A stretch of DNA of 64,000 bases, from contig DROQ01000096.1 in NCBI GenBank assembly GCA_011321845.1, positions 21,181 through 85,180 on the forward strand. The letters are read 5' to 3'. Below are positions 22,108 to 33,135 of the stretch, piece by piece (the first letter of the stretch is position 1; every line of letters starts with the position of its first letter). The notes below the pieces were generated by a model. That model saw nothing but the letters and a program-made list of their open reading frames with translations, made no database searches and was not told the DNA's origin. The translations under genes and the position numbers were made by a program. This DNA comes from Planctomycetota bacterium (GTDB lineage: Bacteria; Planctomycetota; UBA1135; GCA-002748355).

Positions 22108-22336
22108 CGGGTTTTCCGAGACTCGTATCCACCTGCGCCCCCTTTTGCCCGAAGGGCTCGCGGAATGCTGCCCGTCCTTTACACAGCCACGCAATTTTCT
22201 CAGCTGTCCGGAACGCAGGTCCCTCCCTCCCGTATACCCCCCTCGCTGCCGCCGGAAAACCTGCGCGGCTTCCACTCCGGCTACCTCGATTCCTCCCTTT
22301 GAGTGGATCTCTCAACACAAGTCTGGAGTAGAAAGA

Positions 22337-22876
22337 ATGCGTAAAACCTCGATTGCAGCCTCTCTCGCGCTGTTGACAGTTCTCAGTGTTTCCGTCAGCT
22401 CATGCATGTCGAACAGGAAAAAGGGCATGATGAAGCCCCCCTTCGGCTCCCCCAAGGACGTGGCGCAGGCCAATGACCTCTGGAGCCGGATCAGCGGTTA
22501 CCGCACCTGGCAGAGTCCCGCCGGTATGTCGGGCTTCCAAAAAGGGCGCAGCCCCCACGGCAAGTACCTCAAGTACTACCTCAACTCCATCGCCGCCCGC
22601 GACCCGCTCGCGCCCGGCGCGATCGTCGTCAAGGAGAACTACATGGGAAAGAGCGATTCCATGCTCGGCCCCGTGACCGCGATGGAGAAGATCCCCGGCT
22701 ATGACCCCGCCGACGGCGACTGGTTCTGGGTCAAGTTCAACCCCAGGGGCGAGGTCATGAAGAACCCCATGGGTATGTCCCTCGCGGGTAAGGTGGCCAA
22801 AGGCATGAAGAAGGGCTGCATCGCCTGCCACGCCAACGCGGGTGGAGGTGACTTCCTCTTCGTCAACGACGAATAG
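22337..22876 (+). CDS. Cytochrome P460-like c-type cytochrome (lipoprotein or exported)
   Basis: Lipobox-like SVSSC; GRSPHGKYLKYYLN, IVVKENYMGK; C-terminal CIACH haem-binding motif. Confidence 0.82.
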   Translation: MRKTSIAASLALLTVLSVSVSSCMSNRKKGMMKPPFGSPKDVAQANDLWSRISGYRTWQSPAGMSGFQKGRSPHGKYLKYYLNSIAARDPLAPGAIVVKENYMGKSDSMLGPVTAMEKIPGYDPADGDWFWVKFNPRGEVMKNPMGMSLAGKVAKGMKKGCIACHANAGGGDFLFVNDE

Positions 22877-22878
22877 CC

Positions 22879-23355
22879 ATGGATCGCCGCGGGGCGCTCG
22901 CCACCATCCTGGCTCTCCTTGTCGGCCTCGGGGGCTCGATCACCGGGCTGATCGCGGCCTTCATCAGCAACGCCTTCGGCAGGCCGCGGGCGAAAGGCTG
23001 GATCAAAGTCGGCAAGGCCGAAGATCTCAGTCCCGACACCTTCGGGCGGATCGTCCTGACCCTCGAACACAGGCACGCCTGGATGGACGCATCGGTCCCG
23101 ATGACCATCTTCGTCAAGGACATGTATCCCAAGGATCCGATCGCCTACCTGGGGACCTGCAGCCACCTGGGTTGCACGGTCGCCTGGAAGGACAAGAGCA
23201 AACTCTTCGAGTGCCCCTGTCACGGCGGCAAGTACAACGCCAAGGGAGAAGTGGTCGATGGGCCACCCCCCCGCCCGCTGACCCAACTCAAGACCAGGAT
23301 CAAGGGAGAAGACTTCTTCATCCTCCTTCCCGAGAAACGGGAGGGGATGGCATGA
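22879..23355 (+). CDS. Rieske iron-sulfur protein of a bc-type complex
   Basis: TM N-term; CSHLGCTVAW...CPCHGGKY ligands. Confidence 0.95.
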   Translation: MDRRGALATILALLVGLGGSITGLIAAFISNAFGRPRAKGWIKVGKAEDLSPDTFGRIVLTLEHRHAWMDASVPMTIFVKDMYPKDPIAYLGTCSHLGCTVAWKDKSKLFECPCHGGKYNAKGEVVDGPPPRPLTQLKTRIKGEDFFILLPEKREGMA

Positions 23356-24683
23356 AGCTCTGGTGTGCCACCCTCGATTGGTTGAAAGCCCGAACCGATC
23401 TCCCCGACAAGACCAGAACCTTTTTGAACAAGCCCATCCCGGGCAACGTGGGCTGGCTCCACACCCTCGGAGCTCTCCTCCTCTTCTACCTGGTCCTGCA
23501 GACGATCACCGGGATCCTGATGGGCCTGTATTACAGCCCCTCCCCCGACCAGGCCCACGAGAGCATCCGTTACATCGACACCGAGCTGCGCCTGGGGGCC
23601 TTGGTCCACTCCCTGCATCACCACGGGGCCGCCTTCATCCTGATCACGGCCTTCCTCCACCTGATGCGCTCTTTCTTCCTCGCGGCCTATCGAGCGCCGC
23701 GGGAGCTGCTCTGGTGGTCCGGCCTCGTCCTCTTCCTCCTCCTCACCCTCTTCGCCTTCACGGGCCAACTCCTCCCCTTCGACAATCATGGCTATTGGGC
23801 CACCGAGGTAGGGATCCGAATCGCCTCGGCGCCTCCGGTGCTGGGACCCTACATCCGCGAATTCCTGACCGGGGGCTACGGCGATCTTGGAGCGACCACC
23901 TTGAGCCGCTTCATGATCCTCCACGTCGCTGTCCTGCCCCTGGTCTTTTTTGGTCTGGTGGGTCTCCACCTGGCCCTCCTCCAGAAGGTGGGCTCCGCTG
24001 GGCCGCTTCATGGCAGCCCCGAGCCCTACCGCAGCTTCTTCCCCGGTCAGGTCCTCAAGGATCTCAGCGTGGCGGCCCTGGGAGCGCTCGTCCTCTTCCT
24101 CGTAGCCTGGTTCATGCCTCCCGGGGACAGTGGTCCCGCCGACCCGGGGGCCACCGGCTTCGTCCCGCGGCCCGAGTGGTACTTCTTCGCCCACTACGAG
24201 ATCCTCCGCATGCTCCCCTCGGGCTGGCAACTCCTCGGGACCTTTGTTCTTCCCACAGCCGCGGGAGGAGCGCTGGTGCTGCTCCCCCTCCTCGACCGCA
24301 AAAGCGGGGGGCTCTTGACCGACCGCCTGAGGTTCACTCTGGGAGGCCTCGTCCTTTTCGGGGTGGTGGGCCTCACGATCACCGGCCTGGTCGAGGAATC
24401 CCGCGAAAAACCAAAGGAGACCGCCATCGTCGGGGATCCGATCGCGGCGGGGAAGAAGCTCTTTCACACAAAAAAGTGCACCAAGTGCCACAGCATCGGC
24501 AAGGAGAAGGGCGGGGACAAGGGACCCAACCTCGCGCGGGTCGCCAGGCGCATTCGCCGGGACTTTTTCAAACCCTGGATTCGCAAACCCGGGTCCTTCC
24601 GGCCCGACACCGAGATGCCCAACTTCGAAGGTTCAGAGGAGGAGCTGGACGCCATCGTCCGCTACCTCCAGACCCTCAAATGA
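23352..24683 (+). CDS. Cytochrome b fused to C-terminal cytochrome c domain
   Basis: ATGA overlap with Rieske gene; haem His pairs (SLHHHGAAFILITAFLH; MILHVAVLPLVFFGLVGLH), PEWYFFAHYEILR, C-terminal CTKCHSIG..EMPNF. Confidence 0.95.
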   Translation: MKLWCATLDWLKARTDLPDKTRTFLNKPIPGNVGWLHTLGALLLFYLVLQTITGILMGLYYSPSPDQAHESIRYIDTELRLGALVHSLHHHGAAFILITAFLHLMRSFFLAAYRAPRELLWWSGLVLFLLLTLFAFTGQLLPFDNHGYWATEVGIRIASAPPVLGPYIREFLTGGYGDLGATTLSRFMILHVAVLPLVFFGLVGLHLALLQKVGSAGPLHGSPEPYRSFFPGQVLKDLSVAALGALVLFLVAWFMPPGDSGPADPGATGFVPRPEWYFFAHYEILRMLPSGWQLLGTFVLPTAAGGALVLLPLLDRKSGGLLTDRLRFTLGGLVLFGVVGLTITGLVEESREKPKETAIVGDPIAAGKKLFHTKKCTKCHSIGKEKGGDKGPNLARVARRIRRDFFKPWIRKPGSFRPDTEMPNFEGSEEELDAIVRYLQTLK

Positions 24684-24752
24684 GTTTTACGAGGGCTTCT
24701 GCGCGCCCCGGCTGGAAGGAGCCCCAACACCAACCACTTTGGAGGAACAGAC

Positions 24753-25292
24753 ATGATTCGGATCTCATTGGCAGGCCTCGTTGGTCTCACTGCGGCCCTC
24801 TTCGCCTATCCTCAACCAAAGGGCGAAGACAAGAAACCCTTTGGCGGCCCGAAGGACGTCGCCTTCGCCAGGAAGGTCTGGACCCGGATGAAGAACTACC
24901 CCGACTGGGAGCTTCACTCGGATGTCATCAAGGGGCAAACCCCCCATGGAAAGTGGGTCAAGATCTACTCCTCCTGGATCCGGGTGGACGGCAAGCTCTT
25001 TCCCATCCTCGTCAAGGACAATTTCCGGGGGCGTGGTGTCAGCCCCAAGCGAATCCAGGAGGATCGAGGCAAGTGGCTCAAGGCCGTGACCATCATGCTC
25101 AAACGCAAGCCCGGCTATGACAAGGAGAACCAGGACTGGTTCTGGGCAAAATTCAGCCCCGACGGGAAGCTGGTGAACAACCCCAAGGGTGTCCCCCTTG
25201 CGGGCAGGGTGGCCAAGGGCTCCTCCAAGGGATGTATCAGCTGCCACTCCCAAGCCGACGGGGACGACTACCTTTTCTCCAACGACGGCTGA
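24753..25292 (+). CDS. Cytochrome P460-like c-type cytochrome, paralogue of 22337-22876
   Basis: PFGGPKDVAFARKVW, GQTPHGKWVKIY, ILVKDNFRG, VAKGSSKGCISCHSQADGDDYLFSND parallels the first copy. Confidence 0.85.
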   Translation: MIRISLAGLVGLTAALFAYPQPKGEDKKPFGGPKDVAFARKVWTRMKNYPDWELHSDVIKGQTPHGKWVKIYSSWIRVDGKLFPILVKDNFRGRGVSPKRIQEDRGKWLKAVTIMLKRKPGYDKENQDWFWAKFSPDGKLVNNPKGVPLAGRVAKGSSKGCISCHSQADGDDYLFSNDG

Positions 25293-25449: not shown

Positions 25450-26400
25450 ATGGACAAAGTCCACTTGGGGATGATCGCGGGGATCGGACTCCTCGTGCTG
25501 CCTATGGGAATCATCGGTTTGGGAGGAGCGACCCGGCAGCTCGAGGAGGAGCTGCCGGCCTTGGACCGTGGGAGGGCCGAAGGGCAACGGCTCCAGCTCC
25601 GCGTTCCGATGCCCGAGGAGCCCGGAAAACCTTCCTCTCCCGGGCTCGAGAGACGGAGCGCCCCGAGGCGTAAGCAGAGCAAGCGGGAGATCCGCATCCT
25701 CTTGGACCCGGTCACCTTTGGAATGCAGCGTCCCGACTTCGTTCGGAGTCTGGAGGAGCGTTTCCCCGGCTTCCATTTCCCAAGGGTCCGGCTCCGCGTG
25801 GAGGAAGGGAGGCAGAGGCTCTATGGGGGAACGGGCAGCATCCTGATCAGCAGCTGGGGGCTTCGCCACCGGGACAAGAAAAGGGGAATCCGGGAGAACA
25901 AGCTGGGCTACGTGGCTGCCGTGATCGCGGCCGGCAAGGAGGCTGGCCTGCCCCCCCGGATCGCCCGGAACCAGATCTACGATTTCTTGATCGGAGCCCC
26001 CGCACTCGGCGCGACCGGGCCAGTCGCTCCCCCGGCTCCCTTGAATCTCCAAGCCTACAACGCTCCCTGGTTCGCGGGGGGGCTGCTCAAAGGGCGTTTC
26101 TTCCCGGCCGCGACCTCGAGCCGGGTCCCGCTGCGCCTGAACTCCATCGACAAGGCGCTAAGGGGGAAGGGATACTCGCTCATTCCCCTCCCACGCAAAA
26201 ACAAGGGCTTTCTCTACTCCATGGTGGATGGGGTCCTCCCGACCCGGGACAACCTCGTATTGGAGCGCTACCCCCTCAAGGTCTCCATCTACCTCGCCTA
26301 CAACGAACAGGCAAAAAACAGCATAAGTCTCATGCGCATCCTGGCTTGGATCGCTTCGAAACAGGGGAAAAGGGCCTTTTCGGACTGGCTCATCTATTGA
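25450..26400 (+). CDS. Hypothetical protein; weak resemblance to periplasmic phosphate-binding-like proteins
   Basis: N-terminal hydrophobic segment; YPLKVSIYLAYN..ILAWIASKQGKRAF near C-term. Confidence 0.55.
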   Translation: MDKVHLGMIAGIGLLVLPMGIIGLGGATRQLEEELPALDRGRAEGQRLQLRVPMPEEPGKPSSPGLERRSAPRRKQSKREIRILLDPVTFGMQRPDFVRSLEERFPGFHFPRVRLRVEEGRQRLYGGTGSILISSWGLRHRDKKRGIRENKLGYVAAVIAAGKEAGLPPRIARNQIYDFLIGAPALGATGPVAPPAPLNLQAYNAPWFAGGLLKGRFFPAATSSRVPLRLNSIDKALRGKGYSLIPLPRKNKGFLYSMVDGVLPTRDNLVLERYPLKVSIYLAYNEQAKNSISLMRILAWIASKQGKRAFSDWLIY

Positions 26401-26493: not shown

Positions 26494-27240
26494 ATGGGAG
26501 ATTCTGAGAAAACATGCGGGAGCGGTCCGGGAGGCAAGTCCACCCCTTCGGCGCGGACGCGCATCCTGGACGCAGCAGAACGGATCTTCGCTGAACAAGG
26601 GGTGGATGCCGCCTCTCTTCGCCGCATCACGCGCGAGGCCGAGGCCAATATCGCTGGAGTCCATTACTATTTCGGCTCCAAGAACGGACTGGTCCTGGAG
26701 GTTTACCGCAGACTGATCCGCCCGGTGAACAAAAAAAGGCTCTCCCTCCTCGACCAGGCCCGGGCCTCCGCTGGAGAGGATCCCATCCCCCTCCCCGAAC
26801 TGGTCAAGATCTTCTTCATCCCCCCGCTCCTCATCTGCTATCAGGAGCACTGCGCCCGCCCCCACCTCCCCAGGCTGATCGGCCGGATGTTCAGCGATGC
26901 GCCGGACCTGATCCGAAAAATGATCGACGAGGAATTCTCCAAGATGAAGACCCGCTTCCTCGAAGAGCTAGGCATGAGCCTTGGACGACGCCCCAAGGAG
27001 GAACTGATCTGGAAGCTGCACTTCATGGTCGGGATCCTGGTCAACACCATGTTGGCCACCGAGTTTCCTCCCCTGAGTCTCCTGGACCACCACCCCGCAG
27101 AAAAACCCGCCCAATCCCTACGCCAAATCCTCGCCTTCGCCCTCGCGGGGATTCAGCAGGATCCAGAAAGCTTGGACCTCTCCATGGATGATTTCGAGTC
27201 CTACCGCGTGGACGAAGCAGTGTTCGGAGAAGCAGAATGA
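26494..27240 (+). CDS. TetR/AcrR family transcriptional regulator
   Basis: ARTRILDAAERIFAEQGVDAASLRRITREAEANIAGVHYYFGSKNGLV. Confidence 0.93.
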   Translation: MGDSEKTCGSGPGGKSTPSARTRILDAAERIFAEQGVDAASLRRITREAEANIAGVHYYFGSKNGLVLEVYRRLIRPVNKKRLSLLDQARASAGEDPIPLPELVKIFFIPPLLICYQEHCARPHLPRLIGRMFSDAPDLIRKMIDEEFSKMKTRFLEELGMSLGRRPKEELIWKLHFMVGILVNTMLATEFPPLSLLDHHPAEKPAQSLRQILAFALAGIQQDPESLDLSMDDFESYRVDEAVFGEAE

Positions 27241-28739
27241 AGGCCAATCCCCCCCTCAAAGCGCCCTCCAAGCTCGCCCTGATCACAGTCTTCGCTCTCG
27301 CCTCCTGCTGGGGCAAGGCGGACTTCGACCCCGGAGAGCTGGACCTCTCTTTCCCCGAGCGCTTCACGAGCGATCCACCCAGGGTTTCCAGGAAGGCTCT
27401 CTGGGAAGGCCAGCGCTGGTGGGAAAGCCTCCGCGCCCCTGAACTGGATCGACTCATCCGGGAAGGACTCGAAGGGAGCAGAAGCCTCGCAGCCGCCGCA
27501 CAAAGGATCGCCGCCGCCCGCGCCCAGGCCGAGGCCGCGGGAGGCAGCCTCTATCCCCAGGTCAGCGCGGGTCTCTCGGGTTCTCGGACCAAGCAGATCT
27601 TCGTGGGCTTTCCCATCCCTGGCCGGAGCGGCCCCCTGAGCAGTCGGACCAACAGCTATGGCCTCTCGCTGAACCTCTCCTGGGAGCTGGATCTCTGGGG
27701 CAAGCTCTCCGCACAAGCCCGTTCGGCCACCCTCGAAGCCAAACGGAGCGAAGAGCTGTACCAGGGAGCCGCCCTCAGTCTCTCGGGCCAGATGGCCAAA
27801 ACATGGTTCGCCCTCATCGAAGCCAAGGAGCAGGAGAGGATCGCCAAGGGGACCCTGGAGACGGACAAGCAGATCCTCGGTTTCATCGAAGGGCGTTACC
27901 GCTCGGGCAAAAGCCGCCTGGTGGATGTCCAGCTCGCCAAGGAGCGGGCCATGAGTTCCGAGACGACCCTCGCGCGGGCAAAGCGCCTGGTAGCGCTGAC
28001 GACGCGGCAGCTCGAGTATCTTTTGGGGCGACCCGCGCAAGGAACGCTCAGCAGCGCGACGAGGTTGCCCCCCCTTCCTCCCGCTCCGCCCGCCGGCCTC
28101 CCTGCCAGCCTCCTGGACCGAAGGCCCGACCTGCGCGCTGCGCGCCTCGCCCTCCTCTCCCGCAAGGAACTCCAAAAGGCCAGCAAGGCATCCCTCTATC
28201 CCAGCCTCTCCCTGACCGCCAGCGCGGGAACAAGGTCCAACCAGCTCAAGGATCTCATCGACGGGGACTTCAGCGTCTGGAGCCTGGCGGGAAACATCCT
28301 CCAGCCCATCTTCATGGGAGGGACCCTTCGCGCCCAGCTGCGCGCAAACCAGGCCCTGGCCGGAGCGAGCCTGCAGGACTTCGCCGACAAGGTGTTGAGG
28401 GCCCTCCTCGAGGTGGAGCAGGCTCTCAGCAACGAACAACATCTCCGCGAGGAACTCAAAGCAAGCCTCGCCTGGGTTTCAGCGGCCAAGGCTTCCGAAG
28501 CGACCACAAGCGACCGCTACCGCAGCGGCCGGGCCACCATCCTCGAAACTCTCAACGCGAAAAAGGCGCTCTTCCAGGCCCAATCCGCCCTGAGCGCCGT
28601 TCGCCGCAACCTCCTCCAAAACCGGGTCGACCTCTGCCTCGCCATGGGTGGACGCCTCGACCCCCCTGAGACGAGTCCCCAAACTCCCAAACAGGGCGAG
28701 CAGCCCTCCAGTCCCGCCCCCGAGGTGAGCCGACGATGA
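27237..28739 (+). CDS. RND efflux outer-membrane lipoprotein (NodT/TolC-like)
   Basis: Lipobox ALASC; internal OEP repeats (LDRRPDLRAARLAL, LTASAGTRSN); overlaps tetR stop. Confidence 0.93.
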   Translation: MKANPPLKAPSKLALITVFALASCWGKADFDPGELDLSFPERFTSDPPRVSRKALWEGQRWWESLRAPELDRLIREGLEGSRSLAAAAQRIAAARAQAEAAGGSLYPQVSAGLSGSRTKQIFVGFPIPGRSGPLSSRTNSYGLSLNLSWELDLWGKLSAQARSATLEAKRSEELYQGAALSLSGQMAKTWFALIEAKEQERIAKGTLETDKQILGFIEGRYRSGKSRLVDVQLAKERAMSSETTLARAKRLVALTTRQLEYLLGRPAQGTLSSATRLPPLPPAPPAGLPASLLDRRPDLRAARLALLSRKELQKASKASLYPSLSLTASAGTRSNQLKDLIDGDFSVWSLAGNILQPIFMGGTLRAQLRANQALAGASLQDFADKVLRALLEVEQALSNEQHLREELKASLAWVSAAKASEATTSDRYRSGRATILETLNAKKALFQAQSALSAVRRNLLQNRVDLCLAMGGRLDPPETSPQTPKQGEQPSSPAPEVSRR

Positions 28740-29956
28740 CCGAACCAGAAAAACGTAGCGCCTTTTCCCTCTTTCTCGCCTGGGTCCTGCCGGTCCTTGT
28801 CCTCGGGATCGGGGTCTTTGGAACGATCCTGCTGATCAACAGCCGGACCCCTCCCAAGCGCATCCCTCCCAAAAAGCTCGTCCCTCTTGTGCGCTTCCAC
28901 ACGGCCCAGGCAAAGGAACACACCTTCAAGATCTCCACCAACGGGACGGTTCAAGCGGCGCACGAATCCTCCATCGTCGCCCTCGTCCCCGGCCAGATCG
29001 AATGGATCTCCAAAAAGCTCGAGGCCGGACTCAAGGTGCACAAGGGCGAGGTCCTCATCAAGATCGACCCCCGCGATTTCCGCACCCAGATCGAAGCCGC
29101 CAAGGCCGGGGTGGCCAAGGCTCAGAGGCGCCTCGCCGAGGAGAAGAAGGAGGCCCAGCTCGCCTTGGAAGAGTGGAAACGATCCAAGCAAAAGGGGGAA
29201 CCCGACCCCCTCCTCTTGAGAACACCCCAGATCGCAGAGGCCCGGGCAGACCTCAACGCCGCCCGGAACAACCTGGAGCAGGCCCAGCGCAACCTCGAAC
29301 GCACCCAGGTCAAGGCCCCCTTCGAAGGCATCATCGATAGCCGACTCGTGGACCTCGGCACCTGGGTGGGACCCGGGACTCCCCTCTTCCGCATCTTCTC
29401 CACCGATGCGGTCGAGGTGCGGCTCCCGGTGCGAACCGAGGACCTGGCTTGGATCGATCTCCCGAGCAACGGTCCCGCTCCCGTGGAGAGGACCAGCCTG
29501 CCGAGGGTCCGCCTGTCCACGCAGTTCGCCGGAAAGGAGGTCTGGTGGGAAGGCCATATCGTCCGCATGGAAGGCAAGATCGACCCCAAAAGCCGAATGG
29601 CCCACCTCATCGCCAGGGTGGAAGAGCCCTTCGCCAAGGCGCCCCCACTCTTCCCCGGACTCTTCGTCCGAGCCCGGATCCACGGGCGCAGGGTGGCCGA
29701 GGTCTTCGAGATCCCCCGGATGGCGATCCAGGAGGAACGCTTCGTCACCGTCATCGACTCGGAAAACCGGCTCCACCGAAAGAGGGTCGAAATCCTGAAA
29801 AAGAACCGGGACAGCGTGATCATCGGTTCCGGGATCCAGGCGGGACAGCGTCTTCTTCTCAGCTTCATCGAGACCGTCGTCGAAGGAATGAAGGTCCGCA
29901 CAACAGGAGAAGGAGGGGCTCCAGGGGAAACGAACGGCGGCGAGGAGAAGAAATGA
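28736..29956 (+). CDS. RND efflux periplasmic adaptor (MFP)
   Basis: TM, biotinyl-lipoyl-like and coiled-coil regions (GQIEWISKKLEAGLKVHKGEVLIKIDPRDF). Confidence 0.93.
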   Translation: MTEPEKRSAFSLFLAWVLPVLVLGIGVFGTILLINSRTPPKRIPPKKLVPLVRFHTAQAKEHTFKISTNGTVQAAHESSIVALVPGQIEWISKKLEAGLKVHKGEVLIKIDPRDFRTQIEAAKAGVAKAQRRLAEEKKEAQLALEEWKRSKQKGEPDPLLLRTPQIAEARADLNAARNNLEQAQRNLERTQVKAPFEGIIDSRLVDLGTWVGPGTPLFRIFSTDAVEVRLPVRTEDLAWIDLPSNGPAPVERTSLPRVRLSTQFAGKEVWWEGHIVRMEGKIDPKSRMAHLIARVEEPFAKAPPLFPGLFVRARIHGRRVAEVFEIPRMAIQEERFVTVIDSENRLHRKRVEILKKNRDSVIIGSGIQAGQRLLLSFIETVVEGMKVRTTGEGGAPGETNGGEEKK

Positions 29957-32900
29957 AAAAATGGGTCGAATGGTTCGCCGAGAACTCCGTTGCGGCCAAT
30001 CTCTTGATGTTCCTGGTTGTCGTCGGCGGTTTTTTGACGATGTTCCAGTTGCGCAAGGAGGTCATCCCTGAAATCAACACGGAGCGGATCACCATCACGG
30101 TCCCCTACCCCGGCGCGACTCCCAGCGAGGTGGAGGAATCCATCTGCGTCAAGATCGAAGAAGAGGTCCAGGACCTCGCGGACATCAAGCGTGTCACCTC
30201 TTCCTCCCAGGAGGGGGTCGGTGTGGTCGTCATCGAAGCCCTCGAAGGGAGCGACATGGGCAAGCTCCTGGGAGAGGTCAAGAACCGGGTGGACGCCATC
30301 GACACCTTCCCCGAGGACGCCAAGGAGCTGGTCGTGCAGCAACTGGAGGTGCAGACCGAGGTGCTGACGATCGCCCTCGCGGCACCTACCTCCGAGATGG
30401 GCCTGCGCCGCTTGGGGGAACGGATTCGTGACGAGATCTCCGTCCTGGACGGGATCACGCGGGTGGACCTGATCGGGGGGCGGCCCTTCGAAATCAAGAT
30501 CCAGGTTTCGGAGGAGAACCTTCGCAAGTGGGGTCTCAACTTCAGCCAGGTCGCCGATGCGATCCGGATGTCGAGCCTGGATCTCCCGGCGGGGACCCTG
30601 AAGACGCGAGGAGGTGAAGTCCTGATCCGCGGAATCGGACAGGCTTACGACCCCAAGGCGTTCGAAGAGATCCCGGTTCTCACGCAACCCGGAGGGGAGC
30701 GGGTCCTCCTTGGCGATGTGGCCAAGGTCGTGGACGGGTTCGAGGACATCGCGACCAGAACGCTTTTCGACGGCAAGAACTCGCTCCTGATCAAGGTCTA
30801 CCGAGTGGGAGACCAGAGCGCGATCGCCGTCGCGGAAACCACCAAGGAATACCTCAAGCGCAAGCAACAGCAGCTCCCCGAAGGAGTGTCGCTCACGGTT
30901 TGGCTCGACAACGCGCGCTTGCTCAACGGGCGCCTCGACCTCCTCATGCGCAACGGGCGCATCGGGCTCCTTCTTGTGTTCCTGACCCTGGCCCTCTTCC
31001 TCCGGCTCAGGCTTGCCTTCTGGACCGCCTTCGGCATCCCGGTCTCCTTTCTGGGCGCCCTTTGGCTGCTTCCCGGACTCGAGGTCACGATCAACCTCAT
31101 CTCCCTCTTCGGCTTCATCGTCGTCCTGGGGATCGTGGTCGATGACGCAATCGTCGTGGGCGAGAACGTCTTCTCCCATCTCGCCCGTGGCAAACCCATC
31201 AAGCAGGCGATCAAGGACGGAACCACCGAAGTCCTGGTCCCCGTGGTCTTCGCCGTCCTCACGACCATCGCCGCCTTTCTCCCCATGCTCGGCCTCCCTG
31301 GTACCTATGGGCAGTTTTCGCGCAACATCCCTTTGGTCGTCATCGCTTGCCTTTGCTTCAGCCTGGTCGAATCCCTCTTCGTCCTTCCAAGCCACTTGAG
31401 ACACCTCAAAGTGGAGACCAGGGACCCCCTTGGGTGGAACCGGCTCTGGCTCGCCTTCCAATCCATCTTTACCAAGGGACTCGACCAGTTCATCCGCTTC
31501 GTGTACCGGCCCAGTCTCGACTTCCTCCTGCGCTGGCGTTACCTGACTCTTGCGGCGGGGGTTGCAACCTTTCTCCTCACGGTGGGAATGGTCGGGGCCG
31601 GCTGGCTCAAGTTCACCTTTTTCCCCAAGATCGACGCCGACAATGTCTCCTGCGCATTGACGATGCCCATCGGAACTCCCGCCGAAGCGACGCAAGAAGC
31701 CTTGGACCGAATCACGAAGGCGGTGGACCAGCTCAAGGCGGAGTTTGAAAAAACCCCGGGGAGCATCATCCGGCACACCCTCTCCACCTTGGGCTCCCAG
31801 CCCTATCGAATCCAACAGTCGAGGAATTCGGGAGGGGGACTCCTCCAATCGCGGCCCGTCTCCCACCTCGGCGAAGTGACCCTCGAACTCTCGCCCTCCG
31901 AAAACCGCCACATCAGCAGCCGCAAGATCGCCGACCGCTGGAGGGAGCTGGTCGGAAAGATCCCCGACGCCCTCGAACTCAGCTTTACAGGAGACCTCGT
32001 CTCCAGCGGAGCGGACATCAGCCTGCAGCTGACCAGCCCTGACATCGCCATCCTCCGTAAGGCCCGCAAGGAGGTCAAGGCGGTCCTCGCCTCCTACCCG
32101 GGTGTCTACGATCTCTCGGACTCCTTCCGGGTGGGGAAAAAGGAGATGCACCTCCGCTTGAAACCCAGCGCGGAGCCTCTGGGCCTGAGACAAGTTCCAC
32201 TTTCGCGGCAGGTCCGGCAAGCGGTCTATGGTGAGGAGGCCCAGCGTGTCCAGCGGGGGCGGGATGACGTCCCGGTCATGGTCCGCTATCCCGACAAGGA
32301 CCTCAAGAGTCTCTACGCCATCGAAGACATGAGGCTCCGGTTTCCCGGCGGAGACGAGATCCCCCTCAGCACAGTCGCCGACGTCTCCTTCGCGAGAACC
32401 CTCGCAGAGATCAAACGATCCGATCGCAACCGGGCCGTGCTCGTCAAGGCGAACGTGGACAAGGACAAGGGAGACCAGGAGAAGATCCTCTCGGATCTCA
32501 AGCAGCACATCCTTCCCCAAATGAGGCTTCGATATCCGGGGCTCAACTTTTCCTTCGAGGGAACGCAGCGGGAGCAGCGCTCCTTCATGGAAGGAATGAA
32601 GAAGCAGGCGCTCTTTTCGATCATCCTGATCTTCATCCTCCTCGCCATCCCCTTCCGCTCCTACCTGCAACCCTTGATCGTGATGTCGGTCATCCCCTTC
32701 GGGATCGTAGGAGCGGTCTGGGGGCACCTCCTCCTGGGGATGGATCTGACCATGATGTCCCTCATCGGACTCCTCGCGCTCTCGGGGGTGGTCGTCAATG
32801 ACAGCCTGGTCGTAGTCGACTTCATCAACCGGGCGCGGCGCAAGGGCCTGGACTTGCACAAGGCGGTCCGCGAAGCGGGTGCGCGGCGTTTTCGCCCCAT

Positions 32901-33135
32901 TCTCTTGACTTCGGCGACCACTTTCGCGGGGCTGACCCCCATGCTCCTCGAAAAGAGCCTGCAGGCGCGGTTCTTGATCCCCATGGCGGTGTCCCTGGGG
33001 TTCGGCATCGTCTTTTCGACGGTGATCACCCTCATTCTCGTGCCCTGCCTCTACCTCGTTCTCGAAGATGTCACGGGGGGCCGCCGTGGTCTGGGCGACG
33101 TGGATTCGGAGGGGGAGAGGAGGAAAAGCCCATAA
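29953..33135 (+). CDS. RND efflux inner-membrane transporter (AcrB family)
   Basis: ATGA overlap with adaptor; VPYPGATPSEVEE, LFGFIVVLGIVVDDAIVVGENV, LIGLLALSGVVVNDSLVVVDFIN. Confidence 0.96.
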   Translation: MKKWVEWFAENSVAANLLMFLVVVGGFLTMFQLRKEVIPEINTERITITVPYPGATPSEVEESICVKIEEEVQDLADIKRVTSSSQEGVGVVVIEALEGSDMGKLLGEVKNRVDAIDTFPEDAKELVVQQLEVQTEVLTIALAAPTSEMGLRRLGERIRDEISVLDGITRVDLIGGRPFEIKIQVSEENLRKWGLNFSQVADAIRMSSLDLPAGTLKTRGGEVLIRGIGQAYDPKAFEEIPVLTQPGGERVLLGDVAKVVDGFEDIATRTLFDGKNSLLIKVYRVGDQSAIAVAETTKEYLKRKQQQLPEGVSLTVWLDNARLLNGRLDLLMRNGRIGLLLVFLTLALFLRLRLAFWTAFGIPVSFLGALWLLPGLEVTINLISLFGFIVVLGIVVDDAIVVGENVFSHLARGKPIKQAIKDGTTEVLVPVVFAVLTTIAAFLPMLGLPGTYGQFSRNIPLVVIACLCFSLVESLFVLPSHLRHLKVETRDPLGWNRLWLAFQSIFTKGLDQFIRFVYRPSLDFLLRWRYLTLAAGVATFLLTVGMVGAGWLKFTFFPKIDADNVSCALTMPIGTPAEATQEALDRITKAVDQLKAEFEKTPGSIIRHTLSTLGSQPYRIQQSRNSGGGLLQSRPVSHLGEVTLELSPSENRHISSRKIADRWRELVGKIPDALELSFTGDLVSSGADISLQLTSPDIAILRKARKEVKAVLASYPGVYDLSDSFRVGKKEMHLRLKPSAEPLGLRQVPLSRQVRQAVYGEEAQRVQRGRDDVPVMVRYPDKDLKSLYAIEDMRLRFPGGDEIPLSTVADVSFARTLAEIKRSDRNRAVLVKANVDKDKGDQEKILSDLKQHILPQMRLRYPGLNFSFEGTQREQRSFMEGMKKQALFSIILIFILLAIPFRSYLQPLIVMSVIPFGIVGAVWGHLLLGMDLTMMSLIGLLALSGVVVNDSLVVVDFINRARRKGLDLHKAVREAGARRFRPILLTSATTFAGLTPMLLEKSLQARFLIPMAVSLGFGIVFSTVITLILVPCLYLVLEDVTGGRRGLGDVDSEGERRKSP

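Follow-up and report, generated by a model that had tools for sequence, protein, structure and literature searches.

Cytochrome P460 of Nitrosomonas sp. AL212 (NsP460; PDB 6amg, with mutant structures 6e0x and 6w6n) combines a C-terminal CxxCH motif with a lysine, Lys106, that is crosslinked to the haem. The cross-link without a carboxylate gives an inactive protein: NH2OH oxidation requires a correctly placed carboxylate, either Glu or, in McP460, Asp, and wild-type NsP460 has Ala at this position (Ala131), where Glu alone of the replacements tried restores activity (PMC11928373). All structurally characterized members of the P460/c'-beta group have Phe or Arg at the distal cap, and published haem potentials for P460 lie between -340 and -424 mV (PMC11928373). 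The c'-beta cytochromes of Methylococcus capsulatus (McCP-beta; 6hih) and Thermus thermophilus (7ead) have Phe both at the cross-link site and at the cap and lack the carboxylate; an NO-binding role has been proposed for them.

Here we describe a locus in which the genes of a bc-type complex stand between those of two members of this family. Both proteins, A and B, belong to the P460 family and share the C-terminal CxxCH and the cross-link Lys with NsP460. Like wild-type NsP460 and the two c'-beta proteins they lack a catalytic carboxylate. They differ from NsP460 in having Thr for Ala131 and His for Phe76, in being only about 15% identical to it, and in sitting in an operon with bc genes. From the c'-beta proteins they differ in having Lys in place of Phe at the cross-link site and His in place of Phe at the cap.

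Results

A bc-type gene pair lies between two P460-family genes

The window analysed is a stretch of 64,000 nucleotides from a Planctomycetota bacterium. At 22337-25292 of its forward strand are four open genes, which encode P460-family protein A, a Rieske iron-sulphur protein, a cytochrome b/c fusion and P460-family protein B, separated in this order by 2, -4 and 69 bases. An earlier description made from the letters alone, the sequence-only reading, had proposed just this arrangement of tightly spaced genes on one strand, and both the coordinates and the Pfam assignments agree with it. It had also called both flanking proteins P460-like c-type cytochromes and listed motifs common to them. 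The motifs are present in both proteins, and each protein has a CxxCH motif and scores above the curated cut-off of 27 bits for PF16694 (Cytochrome_P460): A (179 aa; 22337..22876) reaches 28.3 bits and carries CIACH (22817..22831), while B (179 aa; 24753..25292) reaches 35.7 bits and carries CISCH (25233..25247). A signal peptide with a lipobox-like VSSC, recognized on reading the sequence, makes A a probable lipoprotein tethered to the membrane; the signal peptide of B has no lipobox, and B is probably soluble.

Chance does not account for the similarity between A and B, whose alignment of 184 columns shows 43% identity (E = 2e-44). A profile of 25 relatives retrieved P460 and c'-beta structures from the PDB (best E 1.9e-8), and profile-profile comparison with canonical P460 gave a probability of 96.6%. 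The AlphaFold models of the two proteins have a mean pLDDT of 71-72, with a confident sheet and poorly modelled surroundings of the haem motif. In Foldseek searches, the top eight matches of A were all P460 or c'-beta proteins (probability 0.98-1.00, at TM scores of about 0.5 and E values of 2e-3 or worse), the best being the c'-beta proteins of M. capsulatus and T. thermophilus. The best match of B was a cytochrome P460, and it was weak (probability 0.66, E 0.09).

In bc complexes, quinol is oxidized at the Qo site and electrons go via the Rieske protein to a c haem. The Rieske protein of the block (158 aa; 22879..23355; PF00355, E 3.8e-11) keeps both cluster motifs, CSHLGC and CPCHGG. The gene that follows (443 aa; 23352..24683) fuses cytochrome b6, subunit IV and cytochrome c (PF00033, PF13631, PF00032 and PF00034). 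All four expected haem b ligands, His89/His103 and His191/His206, are present in it. The helix-D His pair is separated by 14 residues, the spacing found in b6f, and the Qo motif reads PEWY. The C-terminal cytochrome c domain carries CTKCH, which identifies it as a c-type haem subunit. Matches of the bc genes to NCBIfam models were all below cut-off, and these genes therefore belong to none of the curated NCBIfam subtypes. The same genome holds a second Rieske/cytochrome b-c pair (contig C101, locus L112) that is 35-38% identical to the pair in the block. It follows the same plan, a Rieske gene and then a single cytochrome b/subunit IV/c fusion gene, but has no adjoining P460 genes.

We tentatively propose, at somewhat less than even confidence for the whole explanation including the NO role discussed below, that the four genes would form one operon for an accessory, second bc-type complex and two periplasmic P460-fold haem proteins. 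Upstream of A there was no usable Rfam match to an RNA element, and a promoter and terminator scan found nothing exceeding chance. The leader of gene A (22260-22336) is conserved between both genomes of the genus. It contains an inverted repeat, CCACTC (22272-22277) and GAGTGG (22301-22306), a possible regulator site or RNA hairpin. Gene B is followed by a 316-aa open reading frame (window positions 25450-26400) that has no Pfam match and does not adjoin the block in the sister genome. A TetR-type regulator gene and then outer-membrane efflux, HlyD-type and large efflux-pump-like genes occupy positions 26494-33135.

The haem pockets of A and B combine Lys, Thr and a predicted His cap

We compared the pocket residues of A and B with those of solved relatives and counted the residues at each position across 59 domains. 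The alignment with the solved relatives reproduced the numbering of the published pocket table for NsP460 (76/106/131), NeCP-beta (79/109), McCP-beta (32/61/82) and TtCP-beta (29/61/82) (PMC11928373).

The sequence-only reading had proposed a check for the haem-crosslinking Lys, and this residue is present in both proteins. The Lys of VKEN/VKDN, Lys99 of A (22631..22633) and Lys88 of B (25014..25016), aligns with a residue that is Leu in 6w6n, which the PDB describes as the K106L/A131E form of NsP460; it is the equivalent of Lys106. Lys occupies this position in 52 of the 59 domains. Where c'-beta proteins would have Phe or Met, both A and B have Lys.

The position of the catalytic carboxylate corresponds to Glu96 of NeP460, Asp102 of McP460 and residue 131 of NsP460. 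Here A has Thr114 (22676..22678) and B has Thr113 (25089..25091), in place of the distal carboxylate of the NH2OH-oxidizing P460 proteins. Thr was found in 55 of the 59 domains, and Glu or Asp in none. The cap column is that of Phe76 of NsP460 and Phe32 of McCP-beta. It is occupied not by Phe or Arg but by the His of a PHG motif, His74 in A (22556..22558) and His65 in B (24945..24947), and the same His is found in 51 of the 59 domains. For both the Thr and the His, three alignment methods agree, and the numbering was checked against structures. A and B are thus predicted from their sequences to have a His cap, and their pockets are predicted to differ from those of all P460 proteins of known structure.

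What do these pockets imply for function? A role in hydroxylamine chemistry had been suggested from the family name. It is weakened in both proteins, because Thr replaces the distal Glu or Asp and the cap is His. Our prediction is that A and B serve in ligand binding or electron carriage and do not oxidize hydroxylamine; their function is probably a different one.

The block is maintained in one genus

The source genome (4.16 Mb in 268 contigs) is 92.6% complete. Only one other genome of the genus is available (G001, loci L024 and L046), and it has the same four genes in the same order; protein identities are 89% for A, 76% for the Rieske protein, 82% for the cytochrome b/c fusion and 74% for B. 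Reading of the translations suggests that the block in G001 is bordered on one side by genes for lumazine synthase, NusB and FtsY and on the opposite side by those of a different efflux pump. Apart from a distant efflux-pump match, no further gene of the window recurs at this locus. Since the block is intact in the sister genome despite different flanking genes, we conclude that it is a maintained unit. The nearest named record with these genes is a Planctomycetota MAG, JALSSW010000167.1.

Beyond the genus, a genome of the same family (G005) has an ortholog of A, 67% identical, that stands alone; no cytochrome b match was found in this genome, which is only 84% complete. Bc genes near P460 genes were absent from all the loci examined in order-level relatives, other Planctomycetota, Campylobacterota and Sedimenticola. 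Conserved synteny with the bc genes had been put forward as a check on the sequence-only reading. The linkage is indeed kept in a sister genome with unrelated flanks, but among the genomes sampled only this genus has it. In the open-licence papers searched, no bc operon containing P460 genes was described.

At three order-level loci (L019, L041 and L045), a P460 gene adjoins a gene for a membrane cytochrome c-DUF2231 protein. This is a second association of the P460 family with a membrane-bound c haem.

In Planctomycetota of family f49 (loci L092-L100 and L124-L126), we observed P460 proteins in which the P460 domain occurs two or three times in tandem; several of these domains have Thr, Glu or Ala in place of the cross-link Lys. 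Most of these genomes have hydrazine synthase alpha-like genes. Such a match alone is no proof of anammox, because G420 also matched.

A and B are probably old paralogs

In a tree of the 59 domains, A groups with proteins of G005, G420 and order-level relatives. B and its ortholog from the sister genome group instead with proteins from Campylobacterota and Sedimenticola MAGs (loci L048-L054; support 98/92). These nearest relatives of B share its PFGG, PHG, Lys and Thr features and an insertion that is missing from A. Unlike in the block, no bc genes accompany them within the flanks examined, which extend up to about 6 kb on each side.

Could A and B have arisen by recent tandem duplication? 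The tree disfavours this without formally rejecting it: forcing A and B into one clade lowers the log-likelihood by 17.8 units (AU p = 0.066). A recent tandem duplication is probably not their origin. The two had earlier been described as paralogous, which their degree of identity bears out, but the paralogy is old, and B is closer to the Campylobacterota and Sedimenticola proteins than to A.

The genome encodes NO reductase and octahaem cytochromes

The nitrogen and respiratory enzymes of the source genome were assessed by family-by-family searches. A quinol-type NO reductase with a NorB c-like domain is encoded, and hence the genome handles NO. Two octahaem-type cytochromes, L168 and L169, are related to the HAO/HDH superfamily; one of the two is truncated at the end of its contig. 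The search of this genome returned no match to NirS-type nitrite reductase and only below-cut-off matches to the NirK model; the nosZ search gave no signal in the genome and none in the controls either. Among respiratory genes, a cluster reading like alternative complex III adjoins a CtaD-type oxidase, and a cbb3 oxidase subunit is encoded. In the sister genome, an octahaem cytochrome related to HAO/HDH adjoins a DsrP/NrfD-type membrane protein (contig C51, L170).

Discussion

The explanation that we favour, while holding it at a little short of even confidence, is that the block is a bc operon in which A and B exchange electrons with the fused c haem and act on a small ligand, with NO the likeliest, by binding it or turning it over. 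Quinol would be oxidized at the Qo site, and the Rieske protein would relay the electrons to the haem of the fused c domain. A, tethered to the membrane, and B, soluble, would lie beside the fused c domain on the periplasmic face and exchange electrons with its haem. By binding or turning over NO or another small ligand, they might shield or regulate quinol oxidation while NO is present. Our preference rests on the pocket, which is of the "halfway-house" kind described in a recent review (PMC11928373), on the genome's handling of NO and on the position of another P460 lineage next to a membrane-bound c haem. Several points count against it. Most relatives have no bc neighbours, and P460 function therefore does not depend on bc genes. 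P460 potentials are low, so that reduction of the P460 haem by the c haem of the bc complex would be disfavoured unless a ligand pulled the reaction. The lack of a match to NirS, and of a NirK match above cut-off, weighs against NO as regards its source. Finally, the His cap is a prediction from sequence, and the structure models are of low confidence near the haem motif.

The other explanations considered all have a lower probability than the small-ligand reading. The cap His, present in most domains at a position that is above the iron in solved relatives, might itself ligate the iron. A and B would then be six-coordinate, low-spin electron carriers that replace an ordinary cytochrome c between the bc complex and a terminal oxidase, for which the CtaD-type and cbb3 oxidases are possible acceptors; the operon shared with a bc complex also speaks for such carriers. 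However, the cytochrome b already has its own c domain, the cross-link Lys is kept and in known members accompanies an open ligand-binding site, and no structure of the P460 fold has His ligation. We consider carriers of this kind rather unlikely, though they come first among the alternatives.

A and B might also be stress proteins, peroxidase-like or otherwise, whose genes came to lie next to the bc pair by chance and stayed there through co-expression, with no redox link to the complex. Most relatives are encoded by genes that stand alone, and peroxidase-like activity has been reported for one relative with a polar cap, NeCP-beta (PMC11928373). Yet P460 genes stand on both sides of the bc pair, and two genomes that differ around the block both keep it whole, so that we regard this, too, as unlikely. 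Least probable, and in our estimate doubtful indeed, is that A and B oxidize NH2OH and that the c domain of the bc complex accepts the electrons. Both keep the cross-link Lys, electrons would run downhill from a low-potential P460 haem to a cytochrome c, and the genome has octahaem cytochromes from the region of the HAO/HDH superfamily. But none of the 59 domains has Glu or Asp at the catalytic position, and in NsP460, inactive with Ala there despite its cross-link, Glu was the only effective replacement among those tried.

A bolder reading would make these proteins, with their cross-link Lys, Thr and His cap, a new functional class of P460-fold cytochrome dedicated to redox partnership with a bc complex. 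They would serve it as iron-ligated electron carriers or else as a quinol-fed, NO-reducing side branch. We think this unlikely.

The P460/c'-beta fold is a test case of how proteins of a single fold switch from binding gases to oxidizing hydroxylamine or back. The clade to which A and B belong extends to Planctomycetota genomes that have hydrazine-synthase-like genes, and it predicts a third type of pocket beyond those with a Phe or Arg cap. The linkage of A and B to bc genes provides a concrete candidate for a membrane redox partner.
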